DNA from: Candidatus Doudnabacteria bacterium RIFCSPHIGHO2_01_48_18
GTDB taxonomy: Bacteria > Patescibacteriota > Doudnabacteria > UBA920 > 2-01-FULL-46-14
DNA length: 34,672 nucleotides
Reading direction: 5' to 3'
Assembly: GCA_001777515.1 (NCBI GenBank)
Contig: MFEF01000008.1
Coordinates: forward strand, 1-34,672
Below, piece after piece: positions 1,590-31,225 of the stretch (its first letter is position 1; every line of letters begins with the position of its first letter). The translations under genes were made by a program, and so were the position numbers. A model generated the notes under the pieces. That model did not search any database, was not told the DNA's origin, and saw only the letters and a program-made list of their open reading frames with translations.

Positions 1590-1602
1590 AATACATTATT
1601 TT

Positions 1603-1623
1603 CTCCCCCTTAACATGGGGGAG
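1603..1623. repeat. Short GC-rich palindrome between gap and the next gene
   Basis: Perfect 7-base arms, CTCCCCC and GGGGGAG, enclose the loop TTAACAT. There is no T-run after it on either side, so it is not a good intrinsic terminator. It resembles the other small palindromes in this window (in recJ, in folD and after the tRNA) and may belong to a class of dispersed palindromic elements. Confidence 0.6.
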
Positions 1624-1639
1624 GGCATGAAAGGAAAAT

Positions 1640-2602
1640 ATGCAAAACAAAAAAGGGCATTTTCATCTCCATATCCGCGCCGTGCCAGCGCTGGCGTTCA
1701 TCGTCGCCGTCGCCACAGCTGTCGGATACACTGTTTGGTCAAAAAGCTATAATTATGATGACGCGTACTATCCGTACCAGGGAAGCAAAGCGCAAAAATC
1801 TTTGGTGGATATTTCGGATTGGAAAGCGTACCGCAATGAAGAACTCGGATTTGCGCTGGAATATCCCAGCGAATTTACCGCGGCCTTCAACATTACCTCC
1901 AAAACATTGCAGCTCACGCCGGTTGCAAAATCCAAGGACTTTGCCGGCATGACTCTATCCATTCAGGACAATCCGCAGTCTCTGAGCATGACCAATTGGT
2001 GGAAGACAAGCTCCAATTACAAAAGTAATTTCTTGGTTGAGGAAGTGCCCGGCGGCGGAATAAAAATCTACAGCTCAGATAAAAGAGTATTTGATAGTTA
2101 TGTGTTTTTGGGCCGCGACAAAGCAGTTTATCAGTTCTACTGGAGCACGCTTGCCGAAAAAGTTGCGGATCAGATTCTTTACTCATTCAATTTCTTCACG
2201 CCAAAAGATACGGTTTCCGAGTGGAAAACTTATAGCAGCGGGCAACATGGATTCTCCGTAAAATATCCGGAAGACGTTCTCGTCACCGTGCAGCCTGACG
2301 CTGTGGTGAAATTTACCCAGAAAGGGGCCGCCACAAATACCCCCCCCGTCGTCCTTATCCATTCCATGGAAGTCTCTAGCGTGAGCCAGCAGTGGCTCAA
2401 CGATGTTTTGCCAAACTATGTGCTTGTCCCAGAAAAGCCAGTACTCGATGGCAAGATTGTTTCGACGGCCGCTGGCAGAGGAGAGTACAAAAACCACACT
2501 CTGTACATGATCCCCAAAGATTCCGGAACGATGGCGCTAGTTGAAATCGCCAATAGTGATCTTGGCAAAAAAATCCTGGCTTCATTCAAACTCACGAAAT
2601 AG
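1640..2602 (+). CDS. Membrane-anchored protein with two PsbP-like domains
   Basis: Function unknown. The 320-residue protein has a short basic N-terminus and one membrane segment at about residues 14-32 (ALAFIVAVATAVGYTVW), so most of it should lie outside the membrane. Two homologous extracellular repeats follow, opening with DWKAYRNEELGFALEYPSEF near residue 53 and EWKTYSSGQHGFSVKYPEDV near residue 195. This W-x-x-Y-x-x-x-x-x-GF-x-x-x-YP pattern is typical of PsbP-like domains often seen in candidate-phyla proteins. It is a paralogue of the protein at 3625-4815. An AAAGGA site at 1629-1634 supports the ATG start. It lies 6 bases upstream of the next membrane protein and is probably in its operon. 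Confidence 0.8.
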   Translation: MQNKKGHFHLHIRAVPALAFIVAVATAVGYTVWSKSYNYDDAYYPYQGSKAQKSLVDISDWKAYRNEELGFALEYPSEFTAAFNITSKTLQLTPVAKSKDFAGMTLSIQDNPQSLSMTNWWKTSSNYKSNFLVEEVPGGGIKIYSSDKRVFDSYVFLGRDKAVYQFYWSTLAEKVADQILYSFNFFTPKDTVSEWKTYSSGQHGFSVKYPEDVLVTVQPDAVVKFTQKGAATNTPPVVLIHSMEVSSVSQQWLNDVLPNYVLVPEKPVLDGKIVSTAAGRGEYKNHTLYMIPKDSGTMALVEIANSDLGKKILASFKLTK

Positions 2603-2608
2603 AATTTA

Positions 2609-3058
2609 ATGCCGCAACCAATTCCCCCACAATACGCAAAAGAGCTGGGCCGGATCAATCCCTACCATCAGGTACATCCGATCATTGCGCTATTCTTTAT
2701 TTCTTCGGTTGTTCTTGGCGTTGGGAATTATGTTTGGTATCAGGCTATTCAAAAGCCTTTGGATGAATACCGGGGTGGAATGTGCACGCTTGAGGCAAAG
2801 GTCTGTCCAGACGGCAGTCAGGTTGGCCGTACTGGACCGTCCTGTCAATTCGCCAAATGTCCCAGCGAGAGTGTCGTAAAAGCTCTTATTAAAGCCTGCC
2901 CTGAAAAATGGTACAATAACGCAATGCCAGGACCCATTGGATCAGATGATGTTCCACGGCAGTATTACGTTTACCAAAACCAGCGCCGCGAGCTCGCAGA
3001 GTTTGACCGCGGCTGGATCTCGCAAAACTGCAGTCTACAAATGGAAACCGTGTATTAA
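2609..3058 (+). CDS. Small membrane-anchored cysteine-rich protein
   Basis: Function unknown; 149 residues. One membrane segment at about residues 27-47 (IALFFISSVVLGVGNYVWYQ) follows a short cytoplasmic tail with the sequence YHQVH. The external part contains the cysteine-rich motif CTLEAKVCPDGSQVGRTGP followed by SCQFAKCP, four cysteines in a small fold that looks like a disulfide-bonded knob, and a further pair of cysteines near the C-terminus. Its N-terminal anchor resembles those of the proteins at 1640-2602 and 3625-4815, so the three form a family set. No clear ribosome-binding site is seen; translation may be coupled to the upstream gene, which ends 6 bases before. The next gene is a TrpR-family regulator with its own operator-like palindrome. 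Confidence 0.75.
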   Translation: MPQPIPPQYAKELGRINPYHQVHPIIALFFISSVVLGVGNYVWYQAIQKPLDEYRGGMCTLEAKVCPDGSQVGRTGPSCQFAKCPSESVVKALIKACPEKWYNNAMPGPIGSDDVPRQYYVYQNQRRELAEFDRGWISQNCSLQMETVY

Positions 3059-3065
3059 ATCAATG

Positions 3066-3097
3066 CGGAGTATACTGGACTACTCCAGTATACTCCG
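3066..3097. promoter_or_regulatory. Operator-like palindrome 1, before the TrpR-like gene
   Basis: Two perfect 14-base arms, CGGAGTATACTGGA and TCCAGTATACTCCG, flank the 4-base centre CTAC. The left arm contains TATACT (3071-3076), a five-of-six match to a -10 box. The regulator's ATG is 33 bases after that hexamer, so a bound protein would cover the promoter. There is no T-run, which argues against a terminator. Related palindromes lie at 3587-3614 and 4858-4887. Confidence 0.75.
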
Positions 3098-3109
3098 GCA
3101 AAAAACAAA

Positions 3110-3589
3110 ATGGCGAAAGTCTCACAGTATAGTCTTGATGATAAGCGGACCAAAGAACTAATTGGCCAGTTGTGGAATGCGTTCACTTTGCTTGAAGATC
3201 GCAATGAAATAAAAAGGTTTCTGTCGAAATTTTTGACACCTACTGAGATACTGATGTTAGCAAAGCGTCTCGAGCTGTTGAAACTCGCTGACAGCGATTT
3301 GGAAATCATCCAACTAGTCAGGCTGAATGCCGTGTCAAAAAAGACTGTATATGATTGGATAGAAACCTATGACGGCTACGAGGATAACTTCAAATTTTTA
3401 ATCGAAAAGTTAAAAGAGATAGATAAAAAATATCTGGAACGGCTGAAAGAAAGAATTGGTATAGCAGAGCGCACACAGCTTACTAAGAGGACTCTGATTG
3501 GCGCAGAGTTGATAAAATTCGGAGCTTTGACTGCCTACAAAGGTTACAAGAAAAGACAGAAAAGAAAATCAGTATTATTAAACACATAG
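3110..3589 (+). CDS. TrpR/YerC-family DNA-binding regulator
   Basis: Predicted transcription factor of the TrpR superfamily, 159 residues. The family core is at about residues 40-85: FLSKFLTPTEILMLAKRLEL is the first helical part, and LEIIQLVRLNAVSKKTVYDW is the helix-turn-helix with VSKKTVYDW as recognition helix. The C-terminal third is lysine- and arginine-rich and unlike TrpR itself, so it may add a DNA or membrane contact. The gene is bracketed by two palindromes, 13 bases before its ATG and overlapping its stop codon, with a third before the PGK-like gene. Autoregulation is a reasonable inference. The ligand, if any, is unknown; nothing nearby concerns tryptophan. No good ribosome-binding site is visible. 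Confidence 0.8.
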   Translation: MAKVSQYSLDDKRTKELIGQLWNAFTLLEDRNEIKRFLSKFLTPTEILMLAKRLELLKLADSDLEIIQLVRLNAVSKKTVYDWIETYDGYEDNFKFLIEKLKEIDKKYLERLKERIGIAERTQLTKRTLIGAELIKFGALTAYKGYKKRQKRKSVLLNT

Positions 3590-3614
3590 TATACTGGAGT
3601 AGTCCAGGAAACTA
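3587..3614. promoter_or_regulatory. Operator-like palindrome 2, before the second PsbP-like gene
   Basis: Arms TAGTATACTGGA and TCCAGGAAACTA pair at 10 of 12 positions around the centre GTAG. The left arm shares 11 consecutive bases with palindrome 1, and TATACT occurs at 3590-3595, 29 bases before the ATG at 3625. The first three bases are the stop codon of the TrpR-like gene. Confidence 0.7.
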
Positions 3615-3624
3615 CGCATGGAAT

Positions 3625-4815
3625 ATGGAGCAGGAAACAGAGAAATTCGATCAGACGATTAATGTAGGTCCGCCGAAGCTTGATCCGCATCATAAGATTC
3701 ATACGGCTGTAGGGATGGCGATTATTCTTGTTTTTTTAAGTGTGGCCGGATATGGCACTTGGGCTAAAGTTAATCAATCTTGGCCGTTTGAGAGAAATTT
3801 GTCAGGGACACGATGCGACTCGGGGGAGCGATGTGAAGTGCGAACAGACCAAACTGCTGATTGGAAAACTTACCGCAATGAGGAGTATGGATTTGAGATA
3901 AAATACCCAAAAACTTTGATAGGCGAAATTCACAATAGGCCCGATACTATTTTTGCAATTCGCGGAGAAGGCCATTACATGGAATTAACATTGTCTGTGG
4001 AAAAATCTGATAAATCCTTGGATGAAGCATATAAAGACACATGGACATATAAGCTTGATCCAGGTGCGGTAATGGGGGTTTATAGAGAGGATGTTGGCAA
4101 TATGCCTATTCAAGTTACGCAATATTGCATTTTCGGACACAAAAATCTGCAGGATTGCTACAATTCATTGAATGGAGATAAAAGTTCAGTCAGTTTCCAG
4201 AAAATCTTAAAAAAAGATAATACAATTTTTATCTTCACTTTTATCGGCAACTATGAAAACAATTTTGTCCCAGTTATCACCACTTTTAAATTTGTTGAAC
4301 CCGGAACAGAAGCTTCGGAACCGTTGGCAAAAACACGAATAACAGTTCCAAAATTTGATTTCTCAGAATGGAGGATTTATCAGAATGATAATTATGGATT
4401 CGAATTTAGATATCCACGGTTTGATTTCGGGCCATCATCTCATGGGACAGGTACTAATGCGAAAGGCACATTTGATAGCGTATATTTCGACAATTTTTAT
4501 GTAACGATTGGAAAAAATCCGGACAACTTGTCTCTGCGCGATTGGTACAAAAAGTATATTGATGATAGTTCTGTAAGATTGTACCAAATCGGCCTTATAA
4601 ATGATATTGAGATAATGTTTCCCATAAATGGTCCCCAGAGATATGGCGGGTTAGGAAATTTAACTTCACTGATGGAACCTTCCAAAAAATTTGTTATGGT
4701 TTTTGGATTAAATGACCGAGAGACCAGTGATTTAAGTTCCAATGGATATAGTGGTTTTGATGGTCAGGATTTATACATAAGACAAATTATATCCACTCTA
4801 AAATTTACCAAATGA
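3625..4815 (+). CDS. Membrane-anchored protein with two PsbP-like domains, regulated paralogue
   Basis: Function unknown; 396 residues and a paralogue of 1640-2602. A cytoplasmic tail of about 30 residues ending DPHHKIHT precedes one membrane segment (VGMAIILVFLSVAGYGTWAK, about residues 29-50). A small CxxxxxC element follows (RCDSGERC), then two PsbP-like repeats opening DWKTYRNEEYGFEIKYPK and EWRIYQNDNYGFEFRYPR. The first repeat contains an extra cysteine pair (QYCIFGHKNLQDCY). The stretch is visibly richer in A and T than gap or the PGK-like gene, a mild hint of a different history. An operator-like palindrome lies 10 bases upstream of the start, so control by the TrpR-like protein encoded just before it is likely. 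An AGGAA upstream is too distant to be a strong ribosome-binding site. Confidence 0.8.
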   Translation: MEQETEKFDQTINVGPPKLDPHHKIHTAVGMAIILVFLSVAGYGTWAKVNQSWPFERNLSGTRCDSGERCEVRTDQTADWKTYRNEEYGFEIKYPKTLIGEIHNRPDTIFAIRGEGHYMELTLSVEKSDKSLDEAYKDTWTYKLDPGAVMGVYREDVGNMPIQVTQYCIFGHKNLQDCYNSLNGDKSSVSFQKILKKDNTIFIFTFIGNYENNFVPVITTFKFVEPGTEASEPLAKTRITVPKFDFSEWRIYQNDNYGFEFRYPRFDFGPSSHGTGTNAKGTFDSVYFDNFYVTIGKNPDNLSLRDWYKKYIDDSSVRLYQIGLINDIEIMFPINGPQRYGGLGNLTSLMEPSKKFVMVFGLNDRETSDLSSNGYSGFDGQDLYIRQIISTLKFTK

Positions 4816-4857
4816 ATTTAAAAGTAGATGAAATTCGTAATTCGTATTATCAACCTC

Positions 4858-4887
4858 GTAGTATGATAGACTAGTCTATCATACTAC
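4858..4887. promoter_or_regulatory. Operator-like palindrome 3, before the PGK-like gene
   Basis: A perfect 30-base palindrome without spacer: half-site GTAGTATGATAGACT followed by its exact reverse complement. TATGAT at 4862-4867 is a -10-like hexamer 29 bases before the ATG at 4897, the same spacing as in palindrome 2. Eight of 11 bases of the arm match palindromes 1 and 2. Confidence 0.75.
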
Positions 4888-4896
4888 ACTAGGAAC

Positions 4897-5991
4897 ATGA
4901 CGAAGACAGTTACAAGAAAGCTTAATATTTCAAACAAAAGAGTTTTGGTGCTGGTGGATTTTTTGCTGCCGATAGAGAATATGTTGCCGACTCTGGAGTC
5001 GCTGGCAAGCAGCAAAAACAAAGTTATTGCTGTGTCCTTTTTCGACAAGATAAGCCTTGCTAACCATGCCGGCCTGTTGGCAGAAGCCATGCGCCGCAAA
5101 TTCATTCTGCTGCATGACGATGTCCCAAAGCTTCCAGAGTACGACGTTCCACATTTATATTTTGCGCCAAGCGGAAAGCTGCTTGCGCAAATGCGAGCAG
5201 GGGATATTGCTGTCGTTGAAAATCTCAATTTGCTGTCCAAAGAGCAAATCAGCACGATTGTGAAGCTCGGAGAAGAATTTGTTAACGATGATTTTGGCAG
5301 TGATGAAGACGCGACCCATGCGATTGCCGGCAGTATGCATTCCCAAAATGGCCTTGAGTACAACCGGACCAAGAAAAATATTGATTCATTTTTGAGTAGA
5401 GAAAAAAAACCACTGGTGCTGATTCTTGGGGGTACTAAAATCGCGGGCAAAGAAGCCGCACTTGAGAAGCTGATCCCGAGAGCCAGCGTTGTCCTGGTTG
5501 GCGGCGGTATTGCTAATCTGTTTTTTAAGCTGCGCGGATTCGAGATCGGTAAATCTATCGTTGACCCCAAGGCTAACTCTGCCACGATCAAAAAACTGTG
5601 GCGTGATTATAAATCTAAAATCCAGCTGCCGATCGACGTGGTTGTTTCTTCTGACCCTTCAGGAAACGCTGAATGCGTGAAGCCCGACAAGGTCAAATCG
5701 CATCAAATGATCCTCGACATCGGTCCGCAGACAACACTGGAATACAGTAAATACATAAAGAAAGGAGTGGCGTTGGTATGGAGCGGCGCGCTGGGACATG
5801 TGCAGCAGCAGAAATTCAAACATGGCACCAGCGCGTTGCTGCGGCTCTTTGCTTCTCGATCCCAAAACCACGTGAACGCGGCCGCGAGCGGTGAAAGCAT
5901 CATGCCTATCCTGCAGTCTGCCGGATTTCTCCCGCAGCTCGACATCGCGGTACCGAGCAGCATAGGACTTTTAAACGCTTTGGCAAAATGA
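4897..5991 (+). CDS. Divergent phosphoglycerate kinase homologue
   Basis: The 364-residue protein aligns by eye along the phosphoglycerate kinase fold but is shorter than the usual 390-400 residues and much altered. Kept are the nucleotide-side motifs: LILGGTKIAGKEA (about 175-187, with the lysine that contacts ATP), VGGGIANLFF (201-210), DIGP (274-277) and VWSGALG (294-300, normally VWNGPMG). Lost are substrate-side residues: VDFLLP (20-25) replaces VDFNVP, the SHLGRP loop is SFFDKI, LENLRF is VENLNLL, and the arginine of the AHRAHAS motif is missing in SDEDATHAIA. So the 3-phosphoglycerate basic patch seems gone. Position between gap and phosphoglycerate mutase fits glycolysis, but catalysis is doubtful. 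A palindromic operator lies 9 bases upstream; the stop overlaps the next start by ATGA. Confidence 0.75.
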   Translation: MTKTVTRKLNISNKRVLVLVDFLLPIENMLPTLESLASSKNKVIAVSFFDKISLANHAGLLAEAMRRKFILLHDDVPKLPEYDVPHLYFAPSGKLLAQMRAGDIAVVENLNLLSKEQISTIVKLGEEFVNDDFGSDEDATHAIAGSMHSQNGLEYNRTKKNIDSFLSREKKPLVLILGGTKIAGKEAALEKLIPRASVVLVGGGIANLFFKLRGFEIGKSIVDPKANSATIKKLWRDYKSKIQLPIDVVVSSDPSGNAECVKPDKVKSHQMILDIGPQTTLEYSKYIKKGVALVWSGALGHVQQQKFKHGTSALLRLFASRSQNHVNAAASGESIMPILQSAGFLPQLDIAVPSSIGLLNALAK

Positions 5992-7598
5992 CTACGTTCA
6001 AACAGATTATTCTTTTGGTATTAGACGGTTTTGGCGTTGCCTCTTCTTCGGAAGGCAATGCGGTAACAGGCGTAGTGACAAGGAATCTCAATTATCTCAT
6101 CAACAATTTTCCCGCTACCACTCTTCAGGCCTCGGGTCCATCAGTGGGTCTTCCCTGGGGAGAGCGCGGCAATTCTGAGGTTGGGCATTTGAACCTCGGT
6201 GCGGGGCGCATTGTCAGTCAGGATTTGCCGCGGATCAGCAAGGCGATTACAATGGGAGATTTTTTTCAGAACACAGTGCTTATGGGCGCCATGGAGCATG
6301 TCAAGAAAAATAAATCAAAACTCCACCTAGCGGGACTGGTTAGCAATGGCGGAGTGCATAGCTCAGAAGATCATTTGTACGCACTGCTTGCCATGGCTGC
6401 CGATAATGGAATCAAAGACGCATTCGTGCACATGTTTACGGATGGACGCGACACAGCACCCAAAATCGCGATTGAAAGTCTGGACCGGCTATCAAAAAAA
6501 TTCATGCAACTGGGTTTAGGAAAAGTCGCAACGATCGTCGGCAGATTTTATGCGATGGATCGCGGCGGTCACTGGGAGGTGACAGAGCGAACTTATAAAT
6601 CCATGGTCTTTGGGGAAGGAGAAAAAGCTGCTGGCGCGAGGGAAGCGATCTCTGCCTATTATGAGAAGCAGATTTTTGACGAAACGTTTCCGCCAACCGT
6701 GATCACTGCCCCCGACGGCAAACCGGTAACTACAGTGCAGGAGGGCGACGCCGTAATTTTTTTCAATTTCCGTTCAGACCGCGCACTGCAGCTCACGAAG
6801 GCGTTTTCCGATCCCAATTTCAATAAATTTTCCAAAAAATATCCGTTTTTGCAAAACATGTATTACGCAACCCTCACCGCGTACGAAAAAGATTTGCCTG
6901 TATCAGTGGCTTTCCCGCCGATGGAAATCAAGCGAGGCCTGAGCGAAGTCATCAGCGAGCAGAGTTGGCAGCAGTTTCATATTGCGGAGAGTGAAAAATA
7001 CGCACATGTCACGTCATTTTTCAACGGAGGGCGTGAAGCGCCGTTTCCCCTGGAAGAGCGAGAGATCGTAACCTCACCCGGGTCTTATGAGCAGCGCTAT
7101 TCCAATGTTCCGGAAATGAGCGCTGGGAAAATTTCTGAAAAGATAATTGAAAAACTCAATGCCGGTGTGCCATTTGTGATGGCCAATTTTGCCAATGCTG
7201 ACATGGTCGGTCATACTGGGGTGAAAGATGCCTGCCTCAAGGCAGTAAAAGCCATAGATGATTGCATTGGGAAAATCGCGGAAGTAGCGCTTCCCGCTGG
7301 TGCTTGTTTTATCGTCACCGCTGACCACGGAAACATTGAAGAAATTGTTGATCCGAGGTCGGGCATGATTGATAAAGAGCATTCTATGAATCCGGTGCCT
7401 TTTATCGTCGCGGGCAGAGGTTTGGCGTTAAAACAGGTTCGTTCGCGCGGTTATTTGGAACTAGCAAGCATGGTTCCAGAAGGTGTCCTCTCTGACCTGT
7501 CGCCGACGATTCTTGATCTGTATGGCATACCGAAGCCTACTGAGATGACGGCAGTGTCTCTGTTGCCCTTTCTTCTAAAGCAAACCACAGATGGCTAA
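5988..7598 (+). CDS. gpmI: 2,3-bisphosphoglycerate-independent phosphoglycerate mutase
   Basis: Interconverts 3- and 2-phosphoglycerate in lower glycolysis. The 536-residue protein is slightly longer than the usual 510. It belongs to the alkaline phosphatase superfamily: VLDGFG near the N-terminus provides the first metal ligand, GNSEVGHLNLGAGR carries the serine that is phosphorylated (about residue 63), and TDGRDTAP, GRFYAMDR, NFRSDRA, ANADMVGHTG and TADHGNIEE are all present and supply metal and substrate ligands. It starts within the stop codon of the PGK-like gene (ATGA) and overlaps recJ by 8 bases, so translation is probably coupled. If palindrome 3 is an operator, this gene would be controlled by the TrpR-like protein too. 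Confidence 0.96.
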   Translation: MTTFKQIILLVLDGFGVASSSEGNAVTGVVTRNLNYLINNFPATTLQASGPSVGLPWGERGNSEVGHLNLGAGRIVSQDLPRISKAITMGDFFQNTVLMGAMEHVKKNKSKLHLAGLVSNGGVHSSEDHLYALLAMAADNGIKDAFVHMFTDGRDTAPKIAIESLDRLSKKFMQLGLGKVATIVGRFYAMDRGGHWEVTERTYKSMVFGEGEKAAGAREAISAYYEKQIFDETFPPTVITAPDGKPVTTVQEGDAVIFFNFRSDRALQLTKAFSDPNFNKFSKKYPFLQNMYYATLTAYEKDLPVSVAFPPMEIKRGLSEVISEQSWQQFHIAESEKYAHVTSFFNGGREAPFPLEEREIVTSPGSYEQRYSNVPEMSAGKISEKIIEKLNAGVPFVMANFANADMVGHTGVKDACLKAVKAIDDCIGKIAEVALPAGACFIVTADHGNIEEIVDPRSGMIDKEHSMNPVPFIVAGRGLALKQVRSRGYLELASMVPEGVLSDLSPTILDLYGIPKPTEMTAVSLLPFLLKQTTDG

Positions 7599-9291
7599 GC
7601 GTGTTTGGAAAATACGGCTGAATACTAAAAGCGAATCCATTCTCGGTTCGCTATTTGAGGCGCGCGGCCTTGCCTCCGACGAACAAATAAAATTTTTTTT
7701 CGATCCGCAGTATCAAGATCACCATGATCCATTTATGATAAAAGATATGGAAAAAGCCGTGACACGCATCAAAAAAGTTTGCGAGGAAAACAAAAAAATC
7801 ACAATCTATGCGGATTATGATGCTGACGCGGTTACCGCAGCTGCGGTACTTCTCAGATTTTTTAAACAGTGTGGCTATCAGAACATCAATTACTATATTC
7901 CTGATCGATTTACCGAAGGATATGGCATGAATCAGGACGCGATTACTGTTTTAAAAGAGCGCGGAACAAATCTCATTATTACTGTAGACTGCGGCATCAA
8001 CGCGTTTGAGTCAGTTTTAAAAGCAAATGAATTGGGCATAGATGTCGTTATCACCGACCACCACCAGCTCACCCCTCACCCTTTGAAGGGTGAGGGGGCA
8101 TTGCCGGAAGCGGCCGCTGTCGTGAATCCGCACCGGCCAGATGATCCCTACCCATTCAAGGGCCTGACTGGTGTTGGTGTTGCATTTAAACTGGTGCAAG
8201 GACTTCTCAAGGCAGGAGTGTTTACTGTTCCGCCCGGCTGGGAAAAATGGCTGCTTGATTTTGTGGCGATTGGCACGGTCGCGGATTGCCAAAGCGTTCT
8301 GGGTGAAAATCGGATTTTCGTCAAATGGGGACTTTACGTTTTGGGTAAAAGCCGCTGGATCGGTTTGAAAAAGCTTTTGCAGATGGCTGGCATAGATCGG
8401 AGCGAAATGGATACCTACAAAATCGGCTATATCATCGCGCCGCGAATCAACGCCGCAGGACGCATGGAGCACGCGGACGCAGCGCTCAAGCTGTTGCTGA
8501 CTGATGATGAAATGGAAGCAGAAGCTTTAGCGCAAAACCTTGAGCGGCTCAACCGAACGCGCCAGGAACAAACCCAGCGCATCCTCAGCGAAGCTCGCGA
8601 GCAAATGATACTCCTGGGGGATCAGAAGATTCTGCTTGCAGCGGGCGAAGGTTGGCACAAAGGCATTGTCGGGCTCGTTGCCGGGAAGCTCACCGAAGAG
8701 TTTTATCGGCCAGTGTTGGTTATGGATAAAACCGCTGAAGAAGCGACCGGGTCCGCAAGAAGCATAGGCAACTTCAACATCATCGAAGCCATCGGTCATA
8801 GCAAAGAGATATTGGTCAAATACGGCGGGCATCCGCAGGCAGCTGGTTTTACTTTGCGATCGGAGCATATCGAGACATTCCGGCGCAACTTGCTTGAATA
8901 CGCGGAAACATCGCTCACTGACGAGGATTTGTTTCAAGTGCTGCACTATGACGCGCTCGTGAGGCTAGAGCAGGTAACTCCGGAGTTCATAGAATTTATT
9001 TGTAAATTTGAGCCGACAGGCCAAGGCAATCCCAAACCAAGATTTCTACTTTCTGGTTTGAAAGTTCAAAAAATTTCAGCAATCGGCCAGGATGGAAAAC
9101 ATTTGCGTTTGCATGTGAGTTCGGAAAAGCAGACAATCGGCTGCATTGGGTTTGGCATGGGTCACCTAGCCGCAAAATTTGCCGAAGGAAGCCTGGTTGA
9201 CGTGATTTGTGAACCGCAGTTTAATGAATGGAACGGGCAGCGCAGTATTCAACTTAGACTAGTAGATATGGATTTACATGAACCCTGTTAG
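7591..9291 (+). CDS. recJ: Single-stranded-DNA-specific 5'-3' exonuclease RecJ
   Basis: DHH/DHHA1-family exonuclease used in recombination and mismatch repair. The 566-residue length is normal for RecJ. Metal-binding motifs appear in order: IYADYDADAVTAAAVL (about 70-85; the usual DxDGxT glycine is alanine here), TVDCGI, TDHHQL and the RINAAGRMEHADAAL motif in the middle of the protein. A DHHA1 domain with KYGGHPQAAGF and a C-terminal OB-like part follow. Between DHH and the LPEA segment there is an extra peptide of about nine residues (TPHPLKGEG, from residue 161) that is encoded exactly by a palindromic DNA element. The gene starts 8 bases inside gpmI. Confidence 0.95.
   Translation: MAKRVWKIRLNTKSESILGSLFEARGLASDEQIKFFFDPQYQDHHDPFMIKDMEKAVTRIKKVCEENKKITIYADYDADAVTAAAVLLRFFKQCGYQNINYYIPDRFTEGYGMNQDAITVLKERGTNLIITVDCGINAFESVLKANELGIDVVITDHHQLTPHPLKGEGALPEAAAVVNPHRPDDPYPFKGLTGVGVAFKLVQGLLKAGVFTVPPGWEKWLLDFVAIGTVADCQSVLGENRIFVKWGLYVLGKSRWIGLKKLLQMAGIDRSEMDTYKIGYIIAPRINAAGRMEHADAALKLLLTDDEMEAEALAQNLERLNRTRQEQTQRILSEAREQMILLGDQKILLAAGEGWHKGIVGLVAGKLTEEFYRPVLVMDKTAEEATGSARSIGNFNIIEAIGHSKEILVKYGGHPQAAGFTLRSEHIETFRRNLLEYAETSLTDEDLFQVLHYDALVRLEQVTPEFIEFICKFEPTGQGNPKPRFLLSGLKVQKISAIGQDGKHLRLHVSSEKQTIGCIGFGMGHLAAKFAEGSLVDVICEPQFNEWNGQRSIQLRLVDMDLHEPC
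8072..8097. repeat. Palindromic element inserted in frame in recJ
   Basis: 12-base arms CCCCTCACCCTT and AAGGGTGAGGGG flank the centre TG. The element encodes most of the residues TPHPLKGEG, which have no counterpart in the usual spacing between the DHH motif and the following LPEA segment of RecJ. Confidence 0.75.
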
Positions 9292-27294: not shown

Positions 27295-27340
27295 AGGCTA
27301 AAACAAAACGCACTAAAAATTCAAAAATCTTTCCATGCCC

Positions 27341-27347
27341 AAGGAGG
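27341..27347 (+). promoter_or_regulatory. Strong Shine-Dalgarno that sets the purL start
   Basis: AAGGAGG ends 5 bases before ATG 27353. It supports this start over the ATG at 27335, whose reading would make the site part of the coding sequence. Confidence 0.85.
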
Positions 27348-27352
27348 CACAT

Positions 27353-30300
27353 ATGTTGTTACGAGTATGTAAAGCTGCGCAGATTGCAGTAAGAAACCTT
27401 TCACTGGTGACCGCAAAGCTCGCAAAACTTGGCCTCACCGTAAACGACTTGGCGGTTGAGAACAATTACTACATTCAAACTACGGAGGCTCTTGATCGGC
27501 GCGAACTTCAAATCATTAGATGGATTGTCAGGTTCGACGAGCAGACTTGGTTCTATGACTATCCGACGTGGCTCGAAGTTGGCCCTCGTCTGAATTTCGA
27601 GACATCGCATTCCTCAACAGCGATCGACATTTTTCGAAAATGCGGGGTCAACAAGGTTATTCGAATCGAACGGTCAACAAGTTATGGATTTCCAATTCCG
27701 CTATCCGAAGAACAAGGCAATGAGTTTCTTGAATCGCTATATGACCGGATGACGGAAATGCCGTACTCTCGTGATCTGACGAGTTTTGCGTCAGATGTTA
27801 AACCGCAATCGGTTACCATCATTCCGCTTCTTGAAAAAGGTCGCGAAGCACTGGAAACATTCAATATTGAGCGCAAACTGGGAATGGATACGCAGGATTT
27901 GGATTTCTATTGCGAGTTATTTTTTGGACTCGGCCGAAAGCCTACTTCTGTCGAAATTGTCGGGCTCACGACATGCAACTCGGACCACTCCCGGCATCGC
28001 CAGTTCGGAGGCATCTACATCCGAGACGGCATTAGGCTACCCTACAGCTGCATGGAGCTCGTCAAAGAAACATGGAAGCGCAATCCTGGTAATTCGGTCG
28101 TAGCATTTTCTGACAACGCCTCTGCGATTCGTGGCGGACAAGTGTCGGTATTACAGCCTGAGCATCCGGGACAGCCTTCACGTTATGTGGTAAAAATCAG
28201 AATCATTCACAACTCGATCAAAGTCGAAACGCACAATCACCCGACTTTTATCGAACCCTTTCAAGGTGCTTCAACAGGGGTCGGCGGTATTTTGCGGGAT
28301 CTTTTTACCATCGGACGCGGCGGACTCATGGGCGTGCTGGGTGCGATGTACAGCGTCGGCAATCTCAATATCCCGGGTTATGTTTTGCCTTGGGAAGATG
28401 ACGGCTGGAAACATTCGGGGCACGGAGAATCCCCGCTCAACATCCTCATTCAGGCAAGCGACGGCGGATCATTCTATGGAAACTGCGTCGGAAGTCCCGT
28501 TGTTTTTGGCTCCGCCAGGACTTTTGGTATGTCTTTGCCCGAGGGCTATCGAAGCTATCTAAAACCGATCATGTTGGCGGCTGCGGCAGGATTTGTGGAT
28601 GACAACCATCTGAAAAAGAATTCACCGGCAGCTGGAATGCTGGTCGTGCAAATCGGGACGCCCGCACATCGGATCGGTGTTGGCGGGGCCTCTGGAAGTT
28701 CATTTGACGCAGGCCAGAGAAGCGCAGATTTGGATTGGAACTCAGTACAGCGCGGGGATCCAGAAATGGGTCAACGCGGCTGTCGTGTTGTGCGGGCTTG
28801 CGTGGAACTGGGCGACGAGAATCCGATCGAAAACTGCAACGATCTCGGCGGGGGCGGAGAAGATGTGTCCTTGACTGAGCTGTGTTCGCCGGCGGGCGCG
28901 AGATTGCGCTTGCGTTCTATACCTGTAGCTGACCCGACTCTGTCTACTGAAGAGATTTGGGTTAACGAAGATCAGGAACGTGACGCATTTCTCATTCGTC
29001 CAGAAAACTTCGAACGGTTCGCCAAGATCTGCGATCGGGAGAATTGCCCATATGCAATAGTCGGTGAAATCACCGGTGATGGCTGGTTGGTTCTGCACGA
29101 CGCGGTTGACAACACCGAGCCGATAAATCTTCCGTTGGAAAAAATCCTCGGCAATTTGCCTCGGAAAGTTTTCGAATGGAATACTGAGTCGTTGCAAAGG
29201 ACTCCGCTTGAGCTTCCCGCTGACCTCACGCTCATGCAGGCTCTGGACAGGGTTCTACGGCTCGTTTCGGTCGGTTCAAAGAAATTCCTTACCAACAAGG
29301 TCGATCGCAGCGTGACTGGCCTTGTTGCCCAGCAGCAATGCGTAGGACCTAACCATTTGCCGCTGTCAGACTACGCGGTGATGGCCAACAGCTACTTTGA
29401 TTTAACCGGTGTCGCGCTCAGTATGGCAGAACAGCCGGTAAAAGGACTCGTTGATCACAAGGCGATGGCAAGGTTAACTGTTGCAGAAGCGCTGCTGAAT
29501 ATGGGCGGAGCCCTAATCACCGACGCTTCCGACATCAAGCTCTCAGCTAACTGGATGTGGGCACCGAGGCACCCTGGCGAAGGCGCGCGCTTGTACGAAA
29601 CCGCTCTCGCTTTGCGAGACTTTGTCATTGAGGTTGAAAGCGCAATCCATGGAGGCAAGGATAGTCTATCCATGGCAGGGTCAGCGATAGCGCCGAACGG
29701 AGCAGTCAGCACTTCAAAAGCCCCGGGAACGCTCGTCATTACCGCCAGTGCGCCGATGAAGGATATAACGCGTAAGGTTACTTGCGATCTCAAACAAACA
29801 GGTAACTTTTTGGTATACGTGGATCTTTCGGACGGGCAGGCTCGTTTGGGCGGATCAGCTTTGGCTCAAGTATACAAGCAGGTTGGTAATGACTGTCCGG
29901 ATATTGAAGCCAAGGCGCTGGTCAAGGGTATGCGTGTTGAGATTGAACTACTCGCGCATAAACTGATAACAGCGTGTCATGATGTCAGCGACGGCGGACT
30001 TGTCACCACTCTTCTGGAAATGGCTTTTGGCGGTAACGTCGGGATCAATGTTGATTTCAGCGGCCGTCATTCTGCCATTCGGAGATTGTTCAGCGAATCA
30101 CCGGGTTATGTATTTGAGACACCGGACGCCGCTGCTGTGATTTCAGTTCTAGAGAAATTTGGATTAACTGGTGTGCTGCTTGGCAAGGTCAGCGAAAACG
30201 ATGGCGATATTGTCATCAGATACAACGGTGATATTGTCCTATCGGAAGCGATGATCAAGCTGCGCCACATTTGGAACAGTACCAGCACTGAATTGGAAAA

Positions 30301-31225
30301 GCTCCAAGCCGATCCGCGTCTGGTCAGGCAAGAGGAAGTCGTGGATTTTGTTACCAGGGCTCCTCCATACCAGTTATCCTTCAAACCAAGCCTGACTGCG
30401 CCGGCGATTCTCGGTTCATCTGTGAAGCCCCGCGTCGCGATTCTTCGCGAAGAAGGGAACAACTCTGATCGGGAAATGGCGGCGGTGACGAAGATGGCAG
30501 GGTTCGACTCCTGGGATGTAAATATGGACGACCTCGCCAAAGGATTTTCCCTCAAGGATTTCCAAATGGTGATCGCGGTCGGAGGTTTTTCGTTTCGGGA
30601 CGAGTTCGGCGCAGGCCGCGGGCAGGCTGCTGTCATCCGTTTCAATCCGAGAATAATGGATGAGTTCTCCGAGTTCATGGCGCGGAAAGGGACGGCTAGT
30701 CTTGGTGTTTGCAATGGATGTCAAGCTTCGGCAATCATGGGCTGGCCGACCACGGGTTATGAGTATCCGGACGGGGATGAGCCGATAGCCTTTGGCGAGA
30801 ACCTCTCCGGACGCTTCGAGTCGAGATTTTCCACGGTGAGAGTTTTTCCAAGCCCTGCTTCAGAAGTATATTTTCACGGAATGGAAAGATCGGCTCTCGG
30901 TATCTGGGTTGCTCACGGAGAAGGCAGGCCTGTTGTTTCTCGGGAGATGCTGCAGTGGATCGAGAACAATAACCTCGCCCCACTGCGGTATGTGGATTGC
31001 AACGGGGAAGTGACTGAATACTATCCCTACAATCCAGCAACCAGTCCTCGTGGAATCGCTGCCATTTGTTCCCTGGATGGACGGCATTTGGCCATGATGC
31101 CGCATCCGGAGCGCACGTTCCTTAAATGGCAGTGGCCGTGGATGCCAAAGGAATGGAATGAGTTGGTGGCCAGTCCATGGCTGCGAATGTTTCAAAATGC
31201 TCGTAACTGGTGCGATGAGGCCTAG
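27353..31225 (+). CDS. purL: Phosphoribosylformylglycinamidine synthase, single-chain large PurL
   Basis: Fourth step of de novo purine synthesis: FGAR, glutamine and ATP to FGAM. The 1290-residue chain has the size of the gammaproteobacterial and eukaryotic single-chain enzyme, unlike the three-subunit PurS-PurL-PurQ type. Order: PurS-like N-terminus, a linker, first AIRS-type domain with [20 protein letters not shown] and GVGGILRD, second AIRS-type domain with [12 protein letters not shown], then a glutaminase domain from about residue 1025 with [14 protein letters not shown], the nucleophile in GVCNGCQ (Cys1120) and MPHPERT near the C-terminus. It looks complete. No other purine gene is in the window except folD, which provides the one-carbon donor. 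It has its own leader and a long terminator, so it is a single-gene unit. Confidence 0.96.

Follow-up and report, generated by a model that had tools for sequence, protein, structure and literature searches.

Candidatus Doudnabacteria bacterium RIFCSPHIGHO2_01_48_18, an uncultured ultra-small (CPR) bacterium, probably encodes an autoregulating TrpR-like repressor with a small regulon, in which 26-bp palindromes are the predicted operators and the bracketed gene appears to form a module that has occasionally changed place. The gene lies between two of these palindromes in the window, a stretch of 34,672 nucleotides that makes up the complete contig C8 of this genome (G000). Comparison across genomes, all of them assemblies and nearly all from uncultured organisms, supports the fold of the regulator, its bracketing, the co-variation of palindrome and recognition helix, the recurrence of PsbP-like neighbours and the gain of the segment that carries the unit.

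The regulator and its palindromes

The assignment of the regulator to the TrpR/YerC type of helix-turn-helix (HTH) proteins, made in an earlier note on this DNA, was upheld by profile and fold comparisons. The family profile A2 (52 homologues) matched the solved TrpR-like structures 3kor, 3frw and 3g1c at 3e-17, 3e-16 and 5e-16, respectively, and a Foldseek search with the AlphaFold model (mean pLDDT 86.6) retrieved the same three at prob 1.00 with target-normalised TM scores of 0.76-0.84; the predicted fold gave a TM by target of 0.66-0.67 to E. coli TrpR (1trr/1jhg). The window protein itself scored below the Pfam Trp_repressor gathering cut-off (23.7 vs 27 bits, E 5e-5) and is therefore not filed as a member of that Pfam family, only as sharing its fold and superfamily. 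NCBIfam gave no match for the regulator and Pfam no Y1 transposase match for the bracketed protein, in which no nuclease-like motif was seen beside the plain HTH. A long basic C-terminal helix extends past the TrpR core, as in the homologues, which are 126-165 aa long. By its predicted six-helix fold and its family profile homology, the regulator is a TrpR-superfamily HTH protein.

All three palindromes were confirmed (Table 1), together with the shared 11-mer AGTATACTGGA and the hexamers TATACT, TATACT and TATGAT within the arms, 33, 29 and 29 nt from the respective ATG. The hexamers had been taken for -10 elements; they are present as described, but a plain sigma-70 scan of the + strand at all three palindromes gave no -35 partner, and searches for sigma-70 promoters and Rfam families at the palindrome sites returned nothing. 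A single 26-bp pattern, of the AGTATNNTNGANTANTCNANNATACT type, fits the three with 0-1 mismatches where shuffles predict 0 matches. Across the whole 919-kb genome it occurs at five sites only, the two outside the window being C20:25371-25396 and C31:6970-6995, and its reversed control gave 0 matches. In four of the five (regulator, PsbP-like, PGK-like and C20 PsbP-like genes) a start codon follows 11-15 bp past the end of the site; the C31 site lies directly after a gene, the gene to its right being on the opposite strand.

Table 1. Features of the window around the regulator gene (positions in nucleotides of the window).
Feature	Position	Strand	Remark
Segment absent from G001 and G002	1590..4896	+	gap and pgk adjacent in G001/G002
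First PsbP_2-like membrane protein	1640..2602	+	Left part of gained segment; no palindrome ahead
Small predicted membrane protein, 149 aa	2609..3058	+	No family match
Palindrome 1, upstream bracket (predicted operator)	3066..3097	.	Arms of 14; 26-bp core 3069-3094; regulator ATG 12 bp on
TrpR/YerC-like HTH protein, 159 aa	3110..3589	+	Recognition helix about 77-87; long C-terminal helix 91-158
Palindrome 2, downstream bracket	3587..3614	.	Located at 3588-3613 on re-analysis; imperfect right arm; covers the regulator's TAG stop; next ATG 10 bp on
PsbP_2-like membrane protein, two WxxYxNxxYGF repeats	3625..4815	+	Gene behind palindrome 2
Palindrome 3, solitary copy	4858..4887	.	Perfect arms of 15; PGK-like ATG 9 bp on; right edge of gained segment
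Degenerate phosphoglycerate-kinase (PGK) paralogue	4897..5991	+	Behind palindrome 3
gpmI, cofactor-independent phosphoglycerate mutase	5988..7598	+	Above equivalog cut-off
recJ	7591..9291	+	Above equivalog cut-off

Bracketing and co-variation across CPR lineages

A TrpR/YerC-like gene was present in 125 of 380 sampled genomes, about one third. A single-protein scan of the genome contigs for homologues gave no match; an alignment scan succeeded and yielded 53 loci. In these relatives the gene nearly always has a palindrome a short way ahead of its start codon and a second copy at or just past its stop codon; the named loci belong to Doudna-, Shapiro-, Gottesman-, Curtiss-, Roizman-, Woese-, Zambryski-, Wolfe- and Giovannonibacteria. 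Conservation of the palindromes beside related regulators, a check proposed in the earlier note, was found beside orthologues and paralogues alike: an 11-mer common to both 100-bp flanks was seen at 41 of 50 TrpR-like loci against 5 of 164 control genes from the same loci, and the fractions with a long palindrome were 0.66 upstream and 0.54 downstream against 0.04 and 0.06 in the controls, flank length and palindrome score being the analyst's choice. Clear sites were seen in four of the first 98 genomes searched (G000, G003, G061 and G019), and each of the four has such a site right next to a TrpR-like gene. The downstream copy is kept even at loci whose next gene runs convergently (L134, L135 and L040), so it cannot always be the operator of that gene. 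Palindromes 1 and 2 of the window are thus this family-wide bracket and palindrome 3 a solitary copy, rather than three isolated operators. Palindromes also occur without a detectable TrpR-like gene in G117 and G258 (L181-L184), where they are of the GACTAGTC type and possibly belong to another regulator.

The sequence of the palindrome differs from homologue to homologue, each subfamily having its own. Co-variation with the recognition helix, likewise proposed as a check, was found: once the distance of the remaining protein was removed, palindrome distance still tracked recognition-helix distance (partial r 0.32, p 0.0005), although that remainder correlates with it too. At the 32 loci with alignable half-sites, operator position 6 was C in 9/10 cases where Lys or Arg precedes the invariant Thr of the helix and in 0/22 others (p 3.6e-7), the Lys/Arg proteins being spread over several tree branches and the loci not fully independent, so that p values overstate; a His in the helix went with GCA at operator positions 4-6 (5/5 vs 0/27). 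Both rules were noticed in these same data and are hence descriptive, and the single Lys/Arg exception is the window protein, which has Lys and an operator A. Together, the TrpR fold, the conserved palindromes and the co-variation make operators of an autoregulator the best reading of the sites.

Among characterised systems, HisR (YerC), known from Firmicutes and other groups, belongs to the TrpR family, is a protein of <100 aa, controls his genes from ~20-bp palindromic operators with a lineage-specific consensus (cacTTTAnnnnnnTAAAgtg or TGTAnTArnnnnyTnTTACA), is autoregulated in about half of genomes and has its site reported upstream only (PMC9413887). The CPR regulators share with it the TrpR-superfamily HTH and palindromic sites of lineage-specific sequence, but are longer, with a C-terminal helix, and their gene is bracketed by two predicted operators. 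Neither the HisR consensus nor his genes were found at the sites read, those of the own genome lying at the genes for the regulator, PsbP-like proteins and the PGK-like protein and, in one case, after a further gene. With E. coli TrpR, for which the same study quotes the trp operator motif (PMC9413887), the family shares the fold and, in part of it, ACTAGT-containing palindromes, but neither the operator layout nor trp genes at the sites read. A search of open-licence papers found none that deals with TrpR-like regulators, or with palindromes bracketing a gene, in CPR bacteria.

Dispersed copies and mobility

Genes with palindromes on either side, further copies of which are scattered through the genome, are known from RAYTs, which are Y1 HUH transposases typically accompanied by >100 REPs (PMC2817692, PMC3116915, PMC3733652). 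It is conceivable, if unlikely, that the CPR palindromes are likewise primarily spreading repeats of a REP/REPIN-like mobile module, with the TrpR-like gene as helper or passenger. The bracket does stand on both sides whatever the orientation of the next gene. A second subfamily palindrome has solitary copies in G013 and G031 (8 places in each, bracket included), and these dispersed copies are identical even in the non-palindromic centre. One of those in G013 (L167, about 1480-1526) appears, by eye from the sequence, to lie directly upstream of a tRNA gene. Copies also fall within coding sequences in G003, G031, G039 and others, those in prmC of G003 and G039 near alignment gaps. The two prmC genes hold different TrpR-type palindromes, in frame, in variable loops and at different positions (L071 2981-3006 in G003; L160 1501-1526 in G039). 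The 9-residue insertion in the G003 PrmC looks clean against 1nv8/1sg9 but is weak evidence, as close relatives show the same loop to be variable.

The unit itself also occupies different places. Within one operon it has one position in G000 and another in G003, and G001 and G002 lack it there; three units found between metG and tatD belong to different, non-sister branches of the tree, metG standing directly before tatD in many genomes; no palindrome 'scars' of lost units matching any known operator were recognised between these two genes in relatives. In G061 (L060-L069), doublets of ATGATAGACTAGTCTATCAT occur at a constant spacing of 74-76 bp in at least 11 places, although their spacers are of about six unrelated sequences; one doublet stands on each side of the TrpR-like gene and the others lie elsewhere. 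REPINs are doublets too, but constant spacing across unrelated spacers suggests interacting dimers about 7 helical turns apart, and doublets at a fixed distance, as expected of such dimers, count for the operator reading.

Against a mobile module of this kind stand the plain HTH protein without a nuclease motif, the low copy numbers (5-16 palindromes), the fixation of several subfamilies at one locus across genera and the fact that near-identical second copies of the gene were not seen. A Y1 transposase as the general mover of the palindromes was rejected, PF01797 having no match in G000, G003 or G013. Xer/pdif gene modules do not fit either, since palindrome sequence follows the TrpR-like subfamily and not the genome. 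The mobility data are read here as traces of the occasional relocation of a regulatory module. More speculatively, and with similarly modest chances, CPR bacteria could possess a transposase-free analogue of the REPIN-RAYT system, in which the gene of a TrpR-like HTH protein, together with the palindromes around it, would move slowly as a unit and leave cognate sites about the genome; if true, repressor and regulon would spread together while recognition helix and palindrome co-diversify.

Neighbouring genes and a proposed mechanism

The own genome has two palindrome sites with a PsbP-like gene behind them, palindrome 2 and the C20 site, the gene at the latter being cut off by the contig end and assigned from its WKTYRNEEYG motif. 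A PsbP_2-like gene follows the regulator unit in G013, and a similar one in G005 is probably PsbP-like, assigned from a WQTY motif with no Pfam match; G031 has three sites, two of them with a clear PsbP_2-like gene and one followed by a gene for a short lipoprotein that has the same leader. Genes of this kind, which encode membrane or lipoproteins, are thus found downstream of two operator types unrelated in sequence, and this difference between genomes argues for a conserved regulatory link. The recurrence is in line with the proposed repression of the second PsbP-like gene, but palindrome 2 may be part of the bracket instead of an operator dedicated to that gene.

In G001, of the same genus, and G002, of the same family, tkt, pfkB, gap, pgk and gpmI form one cluster in which gap and pgk are 3-13 bp apart. 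At this point the window has a 3.3-kb segment that comprises the two PsbP-like genes, the gene of the small membrane protein, the regulator gene and the palindromes. The bracketed regulator of G003 is found in this operon too, but after tkt and ahead of pfkB (tkt-[pal-regulator-pal]-pfkB-gap-pgk). The absence of the unit from G001 and G002 and its different placement in G000 and G003 indicate a gain or a move within the family. Behind palindrome 3, the PGK-like gene lacks intact signature motifs (VLVDFLLP for RVDFNVP, ASGES for GGGDT, STGGGA absent at the C-terminus), a fuller PGK is encoded elsewhere in the genome (G000:C12:11815-12588), and the window copy may be a pseudo-enzyme or have changed function. 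Two PGK-family genes are also present in G001 and G002. Elsewhere in the window, a 1296-aa ORF (27335-31225) presumably encodes a full-length phosphoribosylformylglycinamidine synthase, which we take to be large for a reduced CPR genome.

The earlier note had read this arrangement as lower glycolysis being tied to a family of envelope proteins through a dedicated regulator. Palindrome 3 ahead of the PGK-like gene, the G003 operon and a pgk adjoining palindrome and regulator in G043 all point that way, but with a divergent PGK paralogue and a segment gained within a conserved operon, which brought gap, pgk and gpmI into juxtaposition with it, the link is weak; most homologues, moreover, sit in unrelated operons (metG-tatD, rfb, glycosyltransferases) and the glycolytic operon is kept in relatives without the regulator, so that the coupling appears distinctly improbable. 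It is very improbable that the palindromes act as mRNA terminators, processing sites or stability elements: all five own-genome copies begin within ~45 bp after a stop codon, the stems are perfect and 20 positions differ in a compensatory manner between upstream and downstream copies, but 101 differences are one-sided, which does not favour strict hairpin selection, no U tract was found on the coding strand, and a stem leaves the co-variation with the recognition helix unexplained.

On the preferred reading, an autoregulating repressor, a TrpR-superfamily dimer would bind each 26-bp palindrome, with operator 1 between the preceding gene and the regulator start codon and operator 2 starting at the regulator stop codon. 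TATACT or TATGAT within the arm would place the transcription start inside the palindrome, where bound repressor would block initiation. By stopping transcription that begins in or close to a palindrome, occupied operators would make the regulator repress its own gene as well as the one that follows operator 2, in the window a gene for a PsbP-like envelope protein, and solitary copies at the PGK-like and C20 PsbP-like genes would widen the regulon to about 4-5 sites. The two-sided bracket may serve looping, a roadblock or insulation of the unit, and the bracketed gene would be the unit that occasionally changed place. We infer binding, repression, promoter overlap and an effector; the missing -35, the position of the C31 site, the solitary copies in coding sequences, the G117 and G258 palindromes and the off-code window protein count against operators.

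To our knowledge, hardly any work has addressed how CPR bacteria control transcription, and genetics is absent for most of them. At the loci examined, the predicted operator can be read straight from the flanks of the gene, giving many protein-site pairs in which a recognition code is visible and which are testable in vitro without growing the organism. The family thereby poses the question of why a repressor gene sits between two copies of its own operator.
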